Source: Candidatus Eremiobacter antarcticus (GTDB lineage: Bacteria; Vulcanimicrobiota; Vulcanimicrobiia; Eremiobacterales; Eremiobacteraceae). Taken from it: a stretch of 64,000 nt of DNA. Under the pieces are notes generated by a model that saw nothing but the letters and a program-made list of their open reading frames with translations, did no database searches and was not told where the DNA came from. The position numbers were made by a program, and so were the translations under genes. Within the stretch, counting starts at the first letter, position 1; each line of letters starts with the position of its first letter. This document shows, piece after piece, positions 43,095 through 55,284 of the stretch. The DNA lies in NCBI GenBank assembly GCA_003244105.1, contig QHBK01000003.1, forward strand, positions 224,396-288,395. The letters are read 5' to 3'.

Positions 43095-43805
43095 ATGTCA
43101 GACACGCTCCTCAAGCGCGCGCGCGGCCCAAAGATCCTCGTCGTGGACGATGAAGCCGCCATTCTCCAAACGCTTCGCTATAATCTCGAGCGCAACGGCT
43201 ACGACGTCTGCACGGCGGGCGACGGGCGTCAAGCGTTGAGCGTGGCGGAAAGCGAGAAGCCGGATCTTATCGTCTTGGACGTCATGCTTCCGCAGCTCGA
43301 CGGCATCGCCGTCTGCCGCGAGATACGTCGCAGCTCCAGCGTGCCGATCCTCATGTTGACGGCCAAGGACCAGGAGATCGACAAAGTTCTAGGCCTGGAG
43401 ATCGGCGCGGATGATTACATCACCAAACCGTTTTCTATCTACGAACTGCTTGCCCGCGTCAAAGCTCATCTGCGCCGCTTGACACCGCAGGCTCACCCGG
43501 CCAACAAGATCTTGCAAGCGGGCGCCATCGAGCTGGATTTAGACCGCCAGCGGGTCACCAAAGCAGGCGCTGTCGTCGAGCTTGCGCCCAAGGAGTTCGG
43601 TGTGCTGCAGACGCTCTTGGAGAACAAGGGCCGCGTGGTCAGCCGGCAGACGTTGCTCGACAAGGTGTGGGGGTTCGACTTCTACGGCGATCAGCAAACG
43701 GTCAACGTCCATGTCCGCTGGCTGCGCGAAAAAATCGAGGACAGGCCGAACGAACCGGAGCACATCATCACGGTCCGCAGCCGCGGATACTTGTTCCGCG
43801 AGTAA
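43095..43805 (+). CDS. phoB: Response regulator of the OmpR/PhoB family
   Basis: A 236-residue two-domain regulator. Receiver: acidic pair DDE at 18-20, phosphoacceptor D62 (IVLDVMLPQLDG), K111 (YITKPF). The winged-helix domain (about 140-236) has LAPKEFGVLQTLLENKGRVVSRQTLLDKVWG and the TVNVHVRWLREKIE recognition helix. The position before phoR, phoU and pst identifies it as PhoB/PhoP; it is the expected binder of the three Pho boxes downstream. ATG 43095 is preferred to 43032, since the receiver starts at residue 12 and upstream residues are not conserved. Confidence 0.9.
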   Translation: MSDTLLKRARGPKILVVDDEAAILQTLRYNLERNGYDVCTAGDGRQALSVAESEKPDLIVLDVMLPQLDGIAVCREIRRSSSVPILMLTAKDQEIDKVLGLEIGADDYITKPFSIYELLARVKAHLRRLTPQAHPANKILQAGAIELDLDRQRVTKAGAVVELAPKEFGVLQTLLENKGRVVSRQTLLDKVWGFDFYGDQQTVNVHVRWLREKIEDRPNEPEHIITVRSRGYLFRE

Positions 43806-49949: not shown

Positions 49950-51050
49950 ATGCGTCCTCTGAGATTTCCAGCGGCCATTCTGATCGTGTGTGCGCTGCTG
50001 ACGGCATGCTCGAATCAGGCTCGAGAGGAACGATCCGGGCCCGCTGGCGCCCAGAGGGGCTTGAACGGGCCGAACGCATCGTCGGCAAACCTGATGCTGG
50101 TGGGCGCCGGATCTACGTTCGATTATCCTTTCTTCTCGCGAGCATTTTTTGAGTACAACAAACTCCATCCGAACGTCGCCGTGAATTATCAATCCATCGG
50201 TTCAGGCGGCGGCATACGGCAGTTCTCTTCGCGCACCGTCGATTTCGGGGCGACCGACGTACCAATGTCCGCCAAAGAGCTGGCGGCGATCCCGAAGGAC
50301 CGGCCGGTTATTCAGATCCCCATCGCCCTTGGTGGCGTCGTCATCGCGTTCAACATCCCGGATGGGCCGACGCATCTAAATCTCACCCCGTCGCTCGTCG
50401 CTGACATCTTCTTGGGTAAGATCACGGACTGGAGCGACCCGAAAATCGCCCGCGTCAATGGCGGAGCAGCGCAGAAACCGCTGCGGATCACCGTCGTGCA
50501 CCGCGCCGACGGGAGCGGCACGACCTACGTGTGCACCGACTACTTGAGCGCAGTAAGCCCTGAGTGGAAGAATTCCGTCGGTAAAGGAAAGAGCGTGAAC
50601 TGGTCCGCGCCGTCATCCGTCGGAGCCAAGGGCAATGAAGGCGTTGCCGGACAGATCCGCAACACTCCCGGCGCGATCGGCTATATCGAGCTTGCGTACG
50701 CGCTCCAGAACGACATCCAATACGCCGCCGTCGGCAACGCTGCAGGGAAGTTCGTGCTGCCAAGTTTCGGCTCCATCGCCGCAGCGGCGGCGGCGAAGAA
50801 AAATGTGTCGCCGAGCGATTTTTCCATCGTCAACGCGCCTGGAGATCAGGCATACCCGATCGCGGGGTTCTCATGGGTTCTGCTGTATCAGCGATATCCT
50901 GACGCGCAGAAGGCGAGCGCCCTTCGCGATCTCTTCCACTGGCTGCTCAGCGACGGCCAGCAGCTGGCCAAGAGCGTCAACTACGTACCGCTTCCACCGG
51001 CCGTCACGGCGCCGGCTCTCTCTACCGTCGCCAAGCTGGGGAAGACATAG
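49950..51050 (+). CDS. Phosphate-binding lipoprotein PstS (second copy)
   Basis: A 366-residue PstS with a perfect lipobox (LTAC, Cys20), so it is membrane-anchored, unlike the first copy. The body is clearly paralogous to PstS1: GAGSTFDYPFFSRAFFEY, IGSGGGIRQF, VDFGATDVPM, HRADGSGTTYVCTDYLS and VGAKGNEGVAGQIR. It sits 44 bases after pstB1 without its own Pho box or terminator before it, so it is probably the last gene of the first pst transcript. It could also serve the second permease set. Confidence 0.92.
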   Translation: MRPLRFPAAILIVCALLTACSNQAREERSGPAGAQRGLNGPNASSANLMLVGAGSTFDYPFFSRAFFEYNKLHPNVAVNYQSIGSGGGIRQFSSRTVDFGATDVPMSAKELAAIPKDRPVIQIPIALGGVVIAFNIPDGPTHLNLTPSLVADIFLGKITDWSDPKIARVNGGAAQKPLRITVVHRADGSGTTYVCTDYLSAVSPEWKNSVGKGKSVNWSAPSSVGAKGNEGVAGQIRNTPGAIGYIELAYALQNDIQYAAVGNAAGKFVLPSFGSIAAAAAAKKNVSPSDFSIVNAPGDQAYPIAGFSWVLLYQRYPDAQKASALRDLFHWLLSDGQQLAKSVNYVPLPPAVTAPALSTVAKLGKT

Positions 51051-51091: not shown

Positions 51092-51135
51092 CTTAACGTG
51101 TGCTTTATCGCGTCTTAAGCGAACGCTGGTATGCT
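51092..51135 (+). promoter_or_regulatory. Pho box and promoter of the double-CxxC microprotein
   Basis: Three direct repeats at an exact 11-bp period: CTTAAC (51092), CTTTAT (51103) and CTTAAG (51114-51119). Ten bases later is a -10 hexamer TATGCT (51130-51135). The spacing to the -10 is identical to that before pstS1 and the porin. The predicted transcript start near 51142 leaves a 27-base leader. Confidence 0.7.
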
Positions 51136-51168
51136 GAAGGCACCGGTAACCCGGTGAGGGGACAAAGC

Positions 51169-51342
51169 ATGCTAGAGCCGGAGACGTCTTGTCAGTGGTG
51201 CGCCAGCAGAGCGCCCGAGTACGAAATGCTGGAATGGCCTCTACGGCCGCAGCCGGCGCAGGCAAGATACTGGATATGTCAGACTTGCGCGGACGCCGTC
51301 TTGATGAGCCATATGGACTTGGTGGCGGTGTGCGCGCTTTAA
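51169..51342 (+). CDS. 57-residue double-CxxC (zinc-ribbon-like) microprotein
   Basis: A small protein with two Cys pairs, CQWC at 8-11 and CQTC near 40-43, separated by an aromatic and Glu/Pro-rich stretch (APEYEMLEWPLRPQPAQARYW). The layout is that of a zinc knuckle or treble-clef finger. GAGGGG lies seven bases before ATG 51169, and a Pho-type promoter is just upstream, so phosphate starvation should induce it. A longer in-frame ORF from 51100 would start inside the promoter and is rejected. Function unknown; a protein- or nucleic-acid-binding regulator of the starvation response is a guess. Confidence 0.65.
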   Translation: MLEPETSCQWCASRAPEYEMLEWPLRPQPAQARYWICQTCADAVLMSHMDLVAVCAL

Positions 51343-51404
51343 AAGGGGGCACTGTCACGGTCGTTTGCGCGCGATCCGCCTTCGCAATCGCTGAAGTTTC
51401 ACGC

Positions 51405-51458
51405 CTTAATTAAAGTTAATGCGGACTTAACCGCCGGTTGAACTCGCGCGGCGATACT
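51405..51458 (+). promoter_or_regulatory. Pho box and promoter of the porin / pst2 unit
   Basis: Four direct repeats: CTTAAT (51405), GTTAAT (51415), CTTAAC (51426) and GTTGAA (51437-51442), spaced 10, 11 and 11 bp. Ten bases later is a -10-like GATACT (51453-51458). The series of spacings and the weak fourth repeat copy the pstS1 box exactly. The predicted transcript starts near 51465. Confidence 0.75.
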
Positions 51459-51525
51459 TAGGGCTAGGGTGCACACGACACCAGATCGCCTGGCGTCGAA
51501 ATGCTGCATCGACCATGAGGTGCCC

Positions 51526-52758
51526 TTGAAGTTCTTATGCCTTTTCATCACGGTGTTCGCTGCCATGGGCGCCGTTCGCGGTGACGCCGCGCCCGCTACC
51601 AAAGCGAAGCACGCGTCCAAAATCATCTACTATGGCAATATCCGTTCGTTCTATCACACGCGAAGCTTTCAAAAGGGAACGAATCAGTACGCCTTCTCAC
51701 TCGGCGGCAATTTCCACGTCGAAGGGGACCTCTTCCAAAATTTCGGCGCCGGACTGACCTATGGATCTGCGAATCCGCTCGGTTCCCAGGATCCTAATCC
51801 GAAAAAACGAGACACCTCGCTGTCGCAGTTCGCCGGCCCGGTGAGCGTGCTGGAAGAAGCATATGGCCAGTACCACACGCCGTTCGTTTCGCTGCGGGTG
51901 GGGCGCCAAATCATCAAAACTCCGTGGGCGCACGCATCAGATTCCCGCATCATACCCAACGCATTCCAGGGTGTGAGCGCCAGCGCGAAGGCGTCAAGCA
52001 GCCTTACGTTCTTCGTCGACCGCATGGTGAGATTCAAAAGCAGGCCGAGCGCGACGTTCGATGCCAACGACCTGCTTTCCAATAAGTTCACACGCGGCGT
52101 GTTAGCAGCCGGCGCCGTGTACAGCCAGCCTCGGTTCGCTGCGCAAGCGTGGTATTATGATTTTTATGACACCGCCCGCATGGGGTATGTGGACGCTATC
52201 GAGAGATTTCAACTGAAGAGCAAATACCATCCCTTTGTGGCGGCGCAGTACGTCGCTGAAGCGGGCGACACGCATCGTCTTTCGGCAAACGTGAACGCGC
52301 ACGGATATGGCGTGAACGTCGGAGTCGCAAACGACCGCGGCGATCTGTCGCTTTCTTACAATAACGTTCCGTTCAGGAACAAAGCGTTCAACAGCGGCGG
52401 CATCGCCTCGCCCTACACCTTTTCGGACACCGATCCGCTTTATACGACCTCCACCGGCACCGGCCTTATCGACAAGGGAGCGGGCCACGCGTACCGGGGG
52501 GCCGTCACGGTTTGGTCGTATCACAACAAATTTCGCGCTATCGCCAGTCGCGCCGAGTACTACTTGTACAGCCCCGCCACCGCGCCCAACAATCACGTGC
52601 TGGCGACCAACCTGGATGTCACCTACTTCTTAGGCAACGGCAAGAAGGGCGATGCATTCCACGGGTTTTCACTGCGGGATCGATGGATCGACATCGATAC
52701 TCCGGGCTCGCCGCTCACGTTCATCAACAATCGGGCGCAGCTCGAATACGACTTTTGA
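51526..52758 (+). CDS. Outer-membrane porin induced with the Pho regulon
   Basis: A 410-residue protein with a signal peptide (LKFLCLFITVFAAMGAVRGDAA) and a mature part of alternating amphipathic strands with many aromatic residues, ending in the outer-membrane C-terminal Phe (LEYDF). General shape and segments such as NFGAGLTYGSANPLG, PFVSLRVGRQIIKTPWA and WYYDFYDTARMGYV resemble OprD-like porins. By promoter and context it likely admits phosphate or phosphate esters. TTG 51526 (GAGG at 51517-51520) is preferred because it places the signal peptide at the N terminus; GTG 51520 is nearly equivalent. Confidence 0.75.
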   Translation: MKFLCLFITVFAAMGAVRGDAAPATKAKHASKIIYYGNIRSFYHTRSFQKGTNQYAFSLGGNFHVEGDLFQNFGAGLTYGSANPLGSQDPNPKKRDTSLSQFAGPVSVLEEAYGQYHTPFVSLRVGRQIIKTPWAHASDSRIIPNAFQGVSASAKASSSLTFFVDRMVRFKSRPSATFDANDLLSNKFTRGVLAAGAVYSQPRFAAQAWYYDFYDTARMGYVDAIERFQLKSKYHPFVAAQYVAEAGDTHRLSANVNAHGYGVNVGVANDRGDLSLSYNNVPFRNKAFNSGGIASPYTFSDTDPLYTTSTGTGLIDKGAGHAYRGAVTVWSYHNKFRAIASRAEYYLYSPATAPNNHVLATNLDVTYFLGNGKKGDAFHGFSLRDRWIDIDTPGSPLTFINNRAQLEYDF

Positions 52759-52805: not shown

Positions 52806-53621
52806 ATGGACGGCATGCGCCCCTTCGTCGAAGGGCTTTTCATCGCGGCAGCGAGGGTATGCGGTTTCGTCGCCTGCTTCTTGCCGCTGGCCCTTTTGGC
52901 CGCCATCGTTGCGGCGCTGCTGTCGGCGGGTTGGAGCGTCGCACCGGGCGCTTCCGTCGCGGGATTGCTTGCCCCGCTTGTGGTGACGCTGGGCCTGGCA
53001 GTTGTGGGCGGCCTGGTGGGAGCGACAGCCGGCGCGGGAACCGCCCTGTTCGCGCACGAGCTCGTAACCGGCGTACCTGCCAAAGCAGCACGAATCGCGC
53101 CCCGCTTCGCGGCCGCTGTTCCCGCCGTGGTCGTAGGCTGGCTTGCGGCAGCCATCGTGCTGCCGGTTGTCGCGGCGCGCAGCTTTGTGGCGGTGATGGT
53201 GGTGGCGGGAACCGTCGTGGCGCTTTGCGTGGCGGCACGGTCATACTCGCTCACAGTGCGGGCCTTAAAAGCGTTGCCGGCCTCCCTGCGCGAGGCCGCG
53301 CTCGCGCTGGGCGCAGACGCTACGCGTCTCACGTCACAGGTGATTGTGCCGGCCACGCGACGGCGCCTCTTCGGCATCTACATCGACGCGGTGTCGCGCG
53401 GCCTGGGAGAAGCGACGGCGCTGAGCATCGTCTTCGCGAGCGCCGTGCGCATGGGTTACGACTTGAAGGCGTTTTCTATTCCCGCGCAGATGCTGACGCA
53501 CGCCCGCATCGGCCAGACCTTTGACTCGGGGCTCGCGCTGTCCGCGTTGTTCGTCTTCGCGCTGTGCGCATGCACCCGGGTTTGGGCCGGGCGCCTTATC
53601 GGACGATTCGAATGGGCGTAG
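52806..53621 (+). CDS. PstC-like permease (second, divergent copy)
   Basis: A 271-residue permease of the MetI fold, shorter than PstC1 (328). The EAA coupling loop is recognisable (LREAALALGADATRLTSQVIVPATRR), as is RGLGEATALSIVFASA in place of RALGEAIAVAMVIGN. The membrane helices are unusually Ala/Val-rich and the substrate-facing residues have drifted. It is in line with the porin gene (47 bases apart), so it probably shares the Pho promoter. Likely assembles with the next two gene products. Confidence 0.75.
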   Translation: MDGMRPFVEGLFIAAARVCGFVACFLPLALLAAIVAALLSAGWSVAPGASVAGLLAPLVVTLGLAVVGGLVGATAGAGTALFAHELVTGVPAKAARIAPRFAAAVPAVVVGWLAAAIVLPVVAARSFVAVMVVAGTVVALCVAARSYSLTVRALKALPASLREAALALGADATRLTSQVIVPATRRRLFGIYIDAVSRGLGEATALSIVFASAVRMGYDLKAFSIPAQMLTHARIGQTFDSGLALSALFVFALCACTRVWAGRLIGRFEWA

Positions 53622-54469
53622 CTTTGCTGCCGGCGAACGGCGGCAAGGCGCAAGAGGCCGCTGGTTTCTTCGGCCGGCTTCCGATACTCGGAGCTTGCTT
53701 CGCCTCTGTGCTAGCCGCGCTCATCGCCTTGGGATTTGCGGCGGCTCTCATCGCGGTGGGCTGGAAATACGTGCCCGCGGCGTTGACTGCGTCGGTGCCG
53801 CAAGGGGCCGCTGCCGCGATCTGGATAAGCCTTGTTCTCGTGGTGTTGACCATGCCCGCCACGCTTGCGATCGCGGTGCTCGCCGCAGCCTGCGCTTGGG
53901 ACATCAACATCGGCGGCACCGTCGGGAGGACGTTGCGAGGCTGGTTGGTCTTCTCGACGTCCGTGCCGGCCGTCGTCGTGGGCGCCACAGTGTTTCTTCT
54001 CTGCGCAATGCTCGGTTTGCGCGTTGGTATTTGGACGGCGCTGGCGGCCGTGGTAGCGCTCAACGTCCCGCGGACAACCGCTCGAATAGTGCGCATGTTG
54101 GGGTACATTCCGGCCCAGACGATAGACGCGACCGCTGCGGCCGGCGCCGCGCCGGCCTTCGCGTTTTTCGCGGTCGCACTGCGCACGATACGCCGTCCGC
54201 TGGCAGCTTTGGCGCTCGCCCTCTGTGCGCAATTGCTCGGACAAGCCGCGGTTATCGTGTTGGCAGGAGGCCTTACGGGCGACCAGCCGTTGGCCGTCCA
54301 GATATGGAAGTTCGCCCCCGACGTGCGACTTGCGGGGTTTCAAGGCGCCCAATCGCTCTTGCTGGTCGCTGCTTGCGGCTTCTTCGTCGCCGCCTCCGGT
54401 GCCGTGAGCAGCTACAGGCCGCGTCGCCGCATCTCCGCGGCTCGGGCATCGCTCGGGGTGGGCACGTGA
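53612..54469 (+). CDS. PstA-like permease (second, highly divergent copy)
   Basis: A 285-residue protein with about six membrane helices. Remnants of PstA include FSTSVPAVVVGATVF (for the [14 protein letters not shown] region) and LGQAAVIVLAGGL (for the [10 protein letters not shown] region). The EAA loop is almost erased (IDATAAAGAAPAFAFFAVALRT, no conserved E-A-A-x-A-L-G). ATG 53612 overlaps the preceding gene by 10 bases; an upstream in-frame start at 53564 is possible. The stop overlaps the ATPase GTG. Confidence 0.65.
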   Translation: MGVALLPANGGKAQEAAGFFGRLPILGACFASVLAALIALGFAAALIAVGWKYVPAALTASVPQGAAAAIWISLVLVVLTMPATLAIAVLAAACAWDINIGGTVGRTLRGWLVFSTSVPAVVVGATVFLLCAMLGLRVGIWTALAAVVALNVPRTTARIVRMLGYIPAQTIDATAAAGAAPAFAFFAVALRTIRRPLAALALALCAQLLGQAAVIVLAGGLTGDQPLAVQIWKFAPDVRLAGFQGAQSLLLVAACGFFVAASGAVSSYRPRRRISAARASLGVGT

Positions 54470-55284
54470 GAGAGTCTATCCGGTCTCCCGGGATGCCCCA
54501 GAGCCGAAACCCGCTGGTCGAAACCAAGCTCGAGACGGACCGGCTTCACGTCCGGTACGGGCAGACGCACGCCCTCAAGGGAGTCAACCTCTCGGTCGTG
54601 GCGGGGACGACATTGGCCATCATTGGCGCCGGTGCCAGCGGCAAAACAACGCTGCTGCGATGCTTCAATAGACTCCACGATCTGGATCCATCCGTGCGGG
54701 TGGAGGGCAGCGTCAAGCTGGACGGCGCGGAGGTTCTGGGCCCGCGAGTGGATGTGCGGTCCCTGCGCCGGCGAGTGGGGATGATCTTCACCCAACCCAC
54801 GGTGCTGCCCGGCTCGGTCTTCGACAACGTGGCCTTCGGGCTGCGCGCCAAAGGCGTCCGTTCCCAAGCGGAACTCGAAGAGAGATGCCGGGCCGCCCTG
54901 CAGCGGGCGATGCTATGGGACCGTGTTTCTTCCATGCTGCGAAACCCGGCCCCTGAACTTCCGCGCGAGCTCCTACAGCATCTCTGCGTCGCGCGCGTGC
55001 TGGCGCTCGACCCGGAGGTGCTGCTGCTGGACGACCCGACGGCGTCGCTCGATCCCGTGTCCGGACTGGCGCTCGAAGAGACCATTCTCGCGCTGCGCCG
55101 AGACCACACCGTCGTCTTGGCGACCAATAATCTGGAGCAAGCCGCACGCTTGTCGGACGCTACGTGTTATGTCGCGAACGGTGAAGTCGTCGAGACCGGT
55201 GAAACTCCGCACGTGTTCAACAGGCCGACGGACACCCGCACCGAGGATTTTCTTGCCGGCCGCTCTTCAAACTTGCCCACGTGA
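54466..55284 (+). CDS. PstB-like ATPase with degenerate catalytic motifs (second copy)
   Basis: A 272-residue protein aligning along its length with PstB1. Walker A is kept (G54-AGASGK-T61). The Q-loop Gln is Thr109 (GMIFTQPTVLP), the LSGGQ signature is LPREL (165-169), the Walker B catalytic Glu is Asp190 (VLLLDDPTASLDP) and the H-loop His is Asn221 (LATNNLEQAAR). The D-loop SLDP is intact. Such a set of losses predicts ATP binding with little or no hydrolysis. The frame is uninterrupted and codon use is like its neighbours, so it is maintained and is not a pseudogene. Starts at GTG 54466 or ATG 54493. Confidence 0.85.
   Translation: MRESIRSPGMPQSRNPLVETKLETDRLHVRYGQTHALKGVNLSVVAGTTLAIIGAGASGKTTLLRCFNRLHDLDPSVRVEGSVKLDGAEVLGPRVDVRSLRRRVGMIFTQPTVLPGSVFDNVAFGLRAKGVRSQAELEERCRAALQRAMLWDRVSSMLRNPAPELPRELLQHLCVARVLALDPEVLLLDDPTASLDPVSGLALEETILALRRDHTVVLATNNLEQAARLSDATCYVANGEVVETGETPHVFNRPTDTRTEDFLAGRSSNLPT

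Follow-up and report, generated by a model that had tools for sequence, protein, structure and literature searches.

The question raised by this locus is whether a frame of 57 codons, lying by itself between a phosphate-binding protein gene and a porin gene, belongs to the phosphate-starvation response and, if so, what its product might do. A sequence-only reading of the region, which is part of a 64,000-nt stretch of the genome of Candidatus Eremiobacter antarcticus (the window, meaning the whole of the DNA analysed), had described it as a Pho-controlled microprotein with two cysteine pairs. The features referred to below, all on the plus strand, are these:

49950-51050, plus strand: pstS2, phosphate-binding protein (profile and sequence comparison)
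51092-51118, plus strand: Pho box CTTAA-N6-CTTTA-N6-CTTAA, three repeats with an 11-bp period (pattern search and class comparison)
51130-51135, plus strand: -10-like hexamer TATGCT, separated from the last repeat by 11 nt
51141-51156, plus strand: small, unremarkable hairpin CACCGG-TAAC-CCGGTG where the 5' end of the transcript is expected (z-score 0.36 for 51138-51200)
51156-51161, plus strand: ribosome-binding site GAGGGG, ending 7 nt before the ATG at 51169
51169-51342, plus strand: 57-aa double-CxxC frame, stop codon included, a candidate zinc-finger microprotein (ORF, shuffles, AlphaFold2, Pfam)
51404-51441, plus strand: separate Pho box of the downstream porin (pattern search)
51469-52758, plus strand: OprD-like porin frame, whose true start is probably GTG 51520 or TTG 51526

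The frame sits where that reading had placed it. The 418 bases between pstS2 and the porin frame hold the box, the -10, the ribosome-binding site and the 57-codon frame in that order, and genes for a phoB-like regulator (Response_reg plus Trans_reg_C, 43095-43805) and for phoU lie upstream in the window. A search of the 2.6-Mb genome for CTTWA-N6-CTTWA-N6-CTTWA with at most one mismatch returned a single match, which is 51092-51118, and the reversed pattern, used as a control at the same threshold across the whole genome, returned none. When up to two mismatches were allowed, the window had four matches, which fall at three sites (upstream of pstS1, of the microgene and of the porin), with 0 expected from shuffles of the window. 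With S as the first base and at most one mismatch, there were eight matches in five places of the genome compared with two control matches, and the microgene box was the only one of these S-form matches with no mismatch. Two weaker Pho-like triples were also seen in this genome. One (G000 C8:116367-116404; L185, L186) is in reverse orientation before a 464-aa carboxypeptidase-regulatory-like/TonB-like frame and the other is at G000 C16:36118-36144 (L187).

Across the class, the perfect S-form triple was found in 36 of 117 genomes, with 44 matches compared with eight for the reversed control. At 29 loci fetched besides our own, the boxes lie mostly before pstS, pstB, porin-like and other exported-protein genes, as judged from N-terminal sequence, with the pstS or porin identity checked separately for several. 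Among pstS loci from other genomes, 17 of 29 have a triple scoring at least 13/15 within 400 nt upstream (the upstream side being assigned by sorting on match strand), compared with 27 of 3000 random window stretches. A TANN[CA]T hexamer occurs at an offset of 8-12 in 21 of 35 boxes, and in 18 of them, the microgene box included, the offset is exactly 11; over 2000 rounds, a shuffled control averaged 0.69 and never exceeded 6. The pattern and the offset were picked after inspecting the sequences, and some of the 35 boxes come from genomes related to each other or are the two strands of a palindromic box. The class-wide pattern (L092-L121) can be written as STTWA three times with an 11-bp period, followed after 11 nt by TANNCT, and in this form it is directly usable to predict Pho regulons and starvation genes.

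Cyanobacterial SphR Pho boxes have at least three tandem CTTAACCT repeats with 3-bp linkers and precede pst genes (PMC1906773). The boxes here share with them at least three tandem repeats, the CTTAA core, an 11-bp period (8-bp box plus 3-bp linker) and the association with pst genes, and their placement relative to the -10 resembles that of E. coli PhoB (PMC1906773). Unlike the cyanobacterial case, the lineage is a different one and the best box of the genome appears to drive an orphan microgene. At 51092, a tandem Pho box stands at the proper distance from a -10, which is the arrangement that marks members of a Pho regulon. These data strongly support the idea that 51092-51118 is a real Pho box of the SphR (CTTAACCT) type. 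Because this box is unique in the genome, and because the same box with the same spacing to the -10 precedes pstS and porin genes of relatives, Pho control of the 57-codon frame is also strongly supported, the induction itself being predicted. The claim of a separate Pho-type promoter thus held up.

Translation of the 57-codon frame is supported but not proven. Its ATG lies 50 nt after the Pho box and is preceded by a Shine-Dalgarno sequence, and the start codon of a recognisable gene usually lies within about 20-130 nt of the Pho boxes of this class. The GAGGGG had been correctly noted as 7 bases from the ATG, as had the two cysteine pairs, CQWC and CQTC, which are C8-Q-W-C11 and C37-Q-T-C40; a fifth cysteine is C55. 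In 4000 dinucleotide shuffles of 51119-51468, plus-strand ORFs of at least 57 aa with any start were present in 1188, those with an ATG and a Shine-Dalgarno sequence in 38 (about 1%), and ORFs of at least 40 aa with two CxxC motifs in five (about 0.1%), the last two features having been chosen after the fact. From these frequencies, a bare ORF is unremarkable, whereas an ORF with a ribosome-binding site and ATG and one with a double CxxC are each unusual. In the window, the microgene frame is the only one of 387 ORFs of 40-130 aa that has a double CxxC.

The main rival reading is that the Pho promoter is real and the 57-codon frame is a chance ORF, in which case the box would be a distal tandem promoter of the porin or would serve an untranslated leader or small RNA. 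We give this appreciable weight, short of an even chance. The frequency of any-start ORFs of such length in the shuffles is in its favour, and so is codon usage. The codon log-odds of the frame (-0.109) is lower than that of any of the 84 fragments taken from 15 local genes, and 121 of 420 out-of-frame fragments score at least as high, while the synonymous-only score (-0.029) exceeds that of just 5 of the 84 real gene fragments and is reached by 118 of the 420 out-of-frame ones. Among the three plus-strand frames, the 57-codon frame has the best codon score. A search for an intrinsic terminator downstream of the frame and ahead of the porin detected none, as a distal porin promoter would have it; against such a promoter, a separate Pho box stands before the porin at 51404. 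In favour of a gene, the 57-codon frame occupies the space up to that box. A riboswitch-like leader before the ATG was suspected and rejected, with no Rfam match and ordinary folding, and the absence of excess RNA structure (z 0.32) also argues against a leader or small RNA. The joint occurrence of ribosome-binding site, ATG and double CxxC is unlikely by chance.

The lack of a homologue also favours a chance ORF. The sequence-only reading had proposed to look in relatives for conservation of both CxxC pairs, and had named an absence of homologues, together with a lack of excess synonymous change in near relatives, as counting against the gene; the first of these two was observed. No homologue of the 57 residues was found in overlapping sets of 101, 117 and 149 genomes of the phylum, which include 13 other genomes of the family. 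In the 101-genome search at E<=1, 75 of the 101 genomes had a match, which is noise. The best match other than to itself (G011, E 0.001) keeps neither CxxC pair and was rejected. Searches of GTDB contigs, plasmids (best E 5) and phages (best E 0.9) also found no homologue, nor did a search of viral contigs, where the single match covers 26 residues and has no cysteines, and NCBIfam gave no match. A survey of double-CxxC ORFs at 90 loci and 28 more (20 wider regions and 8 pstS relatives) showed nothing similar at the syntenic position, and relatives that carry the same pst cluster are without the microgene.

In relatives, the region that separates the first pst cluster from a second set (two permease-like genes plus one for a PstB-like protein) varies in content. 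It holds a second pstS in G010, an 803-aa protein in G012 and, here, pstS2, the microgene and the porin. A place in this variable slot would suit a young or transferred gene, and as the best explanation of the locus we infer that the microgene is young or fast-evolving. Taken together, a real Pho promoter probably drives a zinc-finger-like microprotein that is young, lineage-specific and encoded at a variable site within the pst cluster.

AlphaFold2 run on the lone sequence gave a best model with a pLDDT of 77.5 and a pTM of 0.59, in which the order of elements is strand, knuckle helix, hairpin and CxxC-helix; the remaining four models had values of 63.2, 61.9, 49.7 and 45.6, one of the five being confident. 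As a single control, one spurious 57-aa ORF of the window gave a pLDDT of 50.6 and a pTM of 0.24. The order that defines a treble clef (knuckle, beta hairpin and a helix that begins with the second CxxC) fits in one single-sequence AlphaFold2 model. Foldseek against the PDB returned nothing at E<=1. Of 54 chains re-aligned with VIA, two reached Z 2.2-2.3, a PHD-like domain among them, and we count neither as a fold match. The Pfam family PF23145 (Zf_2nd_IFT121) scores 21.6 bits for the 57 residues and 22.9 for the 80-aa frame described below, under the 25-bit gathering cut-off, and nine shuffles with Cys and Trp fixed score at most 16.0 bits. The zinc domains of McsA and ClpX may be look-alikes of the microprotein.

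The proposal of a small zinc protein is thus plausible and in our judgement mildly favoured. The double CxxC, the treble-clef-like order and the sub-threshold zinc finger of Pfam stand on its side, and the search for a homologue, the codon signal and the search for a fold match do not. A second alternative, in which the gene is real and Pho-controlled but its cysteine pairs take part in thiol redox chemistry or hold a metal such as iron or copper in place of structural zinc, seems very improbable. The fifth cysteine, C55, would suit this, and zinc binding itself is only predicted; the predicted order of elements, however, is that of a zinc finger and not of a thioredoxin-like fold, and the sole Pfam hint is a zinc finger. 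We also hold it to be very doubtful that a different frame is the gene, either the 80-aa frame that, as had been pointed out, starts within the promoter (GTG 51100, inside the repeat block) or one on the opposite strand. Such frames are open, and one minus-strand frame scores higher on codons (0.107/0.143), but that frame is interrupted by stops, the GTG lies within the Pho box upstream of the expected transcription start, and the extra 23 N-terminal codons do not improve the synonymous score (-0.042).

One recognisable family was met in the double-CxxC scan. This is a 78-aa membrane-anchored zinc-ribbon protein (CxxCGRRGxREHM...SWxCxxCA; G034 C107:7737-7970, L151) with matches at E<=0.01 in 65 of the 117 class genomes; its match in G001 is doubtful and it was not found in the genome of the window. 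In G034, its gene is a few kb upstream of a phoB-phoR-pstB-Pho box-porin arrangement, and several other genomes have similar Pho-box spacing. Against an HMM of 10 sequences of this family the microprotein scored 3.5 bits, and 43 of 1000 Cys-fixed shuffles score as high; a kinship beyond the cysteine positions is at most tentative. A Clp-type ATPase-like protein on G034 C107 (L141:1-1817, minus strand) has an N-terminal double-CxxC segment (CEAC...CASC) that recalls the layout of the microprotein, as identified by eye.

Our preferred reading, of a translated zinc-finger-like microprotein, leads to the following proposal. In phosphate starvation, a PhoB/SphR-type regulator, the product of the phoB-like gene, would bind the three CTTAA repeats and activate the promoter with its -10 at 51130. 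A short transcript with a predicted start at about 51142 would be translated from ATG 51169 to give a 57-residue cytosolic protein, in which C8, C11, C37 and C40 would hold one zinc ion in a treble-clef-like arrangement of knuckle, beta hairpin and helix. Because 57 residues leave no room for an active site, the protein would most likely be an adaptor that binds and adjusts one partner in starvation, like other small Pho-linked proteins. We accept the proposal as a whole, a Pho-induced, single-zinc, treble-clef-like adaptor microprotein, with moderate confidence. The promoter is supported by the sequence comparisons; the zinc, the fold, the adaptor role and the partner are deduced, with strength decreasing from translation to zinc, fold and partner.

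There are precedents for such a role. YtfK of E. coli is a small (8 kDa) Pho-regulon protein that acts via its partner SpoT (PMC6917717), and very small DUF1127 proteins bind the sensor kinase PhoR and in this way alter phosphate uptake (PMC12501420); in both cases small proteins tune phosphate or starvation signalling. The microprotein is like YtfK in being small and Pho-linked, YtfK working through a protein partner (PMC6917717), and like the DUF1127 proteins in being very small. It has no Pfam match to DUF1127, a scan at E<=10 giving PF23145 only, where HMMER filters may drop weak matches. To our knowledge, neither YtfK nor the DUF1127 proteins have a double CxxC. In Haloferax volcanii, the C(P)XCG zinc-finger micro-proteins are smaller than 70 aa and carry two CxxC pairs; HVO_0758 binds zinc and depends on all four cysteines for its folding, and most deletion mutants of these proteins have phenotypes (PMC10716476). 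This precedent indicates that a lone double-CxxC protein can fold as a zinc protein with fewer than 70 aa (PMC10716476). The microprotein has the size (57 aa) and the two pairs (C8/C11 and C37/C40) in common with them. By contrast, its pairs are CQWCA and CQTCA, with no G after the second Cys and no P, and it is bacterial and Pho-box controlled, with zinc predicted. Because the C(P)XCG form is absent, we do not file it with that family.

If the proposal is true, the best Pho box of the genome would control a microprotein with a single zinc, a metal-dependent version of such tuning in a lineage that has received little study. The case would also illustrate how an ancient regulon can take in a young gene. 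The value of the finding, a well-supported Pho promoter ahead of an orphan frame, is modest. Polymerase, the ribosome or Pst/PhoR as the target is speculation from position and precedent. A newborn, lineage-specific zinc-finger microprotein that was captured by the strongest Pho promoter of the genome and acts on the neighbouring Pst/PhoR machinery seems unlikely to us. On that reading, the microprotein could be the partner of the conserved, catalytically degenerate second Pst transporter beside it, linking phosphate starvation to zinc or signalling.

The PstB of that second set (54490-55284, plus strand) is 41% identical to the canonical PstB. Here, the ABC signature is lost, the Walker-B Glu is Asp and the H-loop His is Asn. 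A counterpart is present in 14 of 14 family genomes, where LSGGQ is kept in none, Walker-B DE in 3 and the H-loop His in 1, whereas all three motifs are kept in 12 of the 12 canonical PstB copies examined. It is thus a conserved Pst paralogue, probably ATPase-poor and perhaps a sensor. The permease-like genes beside it (52806-53621 and 53564-54469) score just under the Pfam cut-off for BPD_transp_1.
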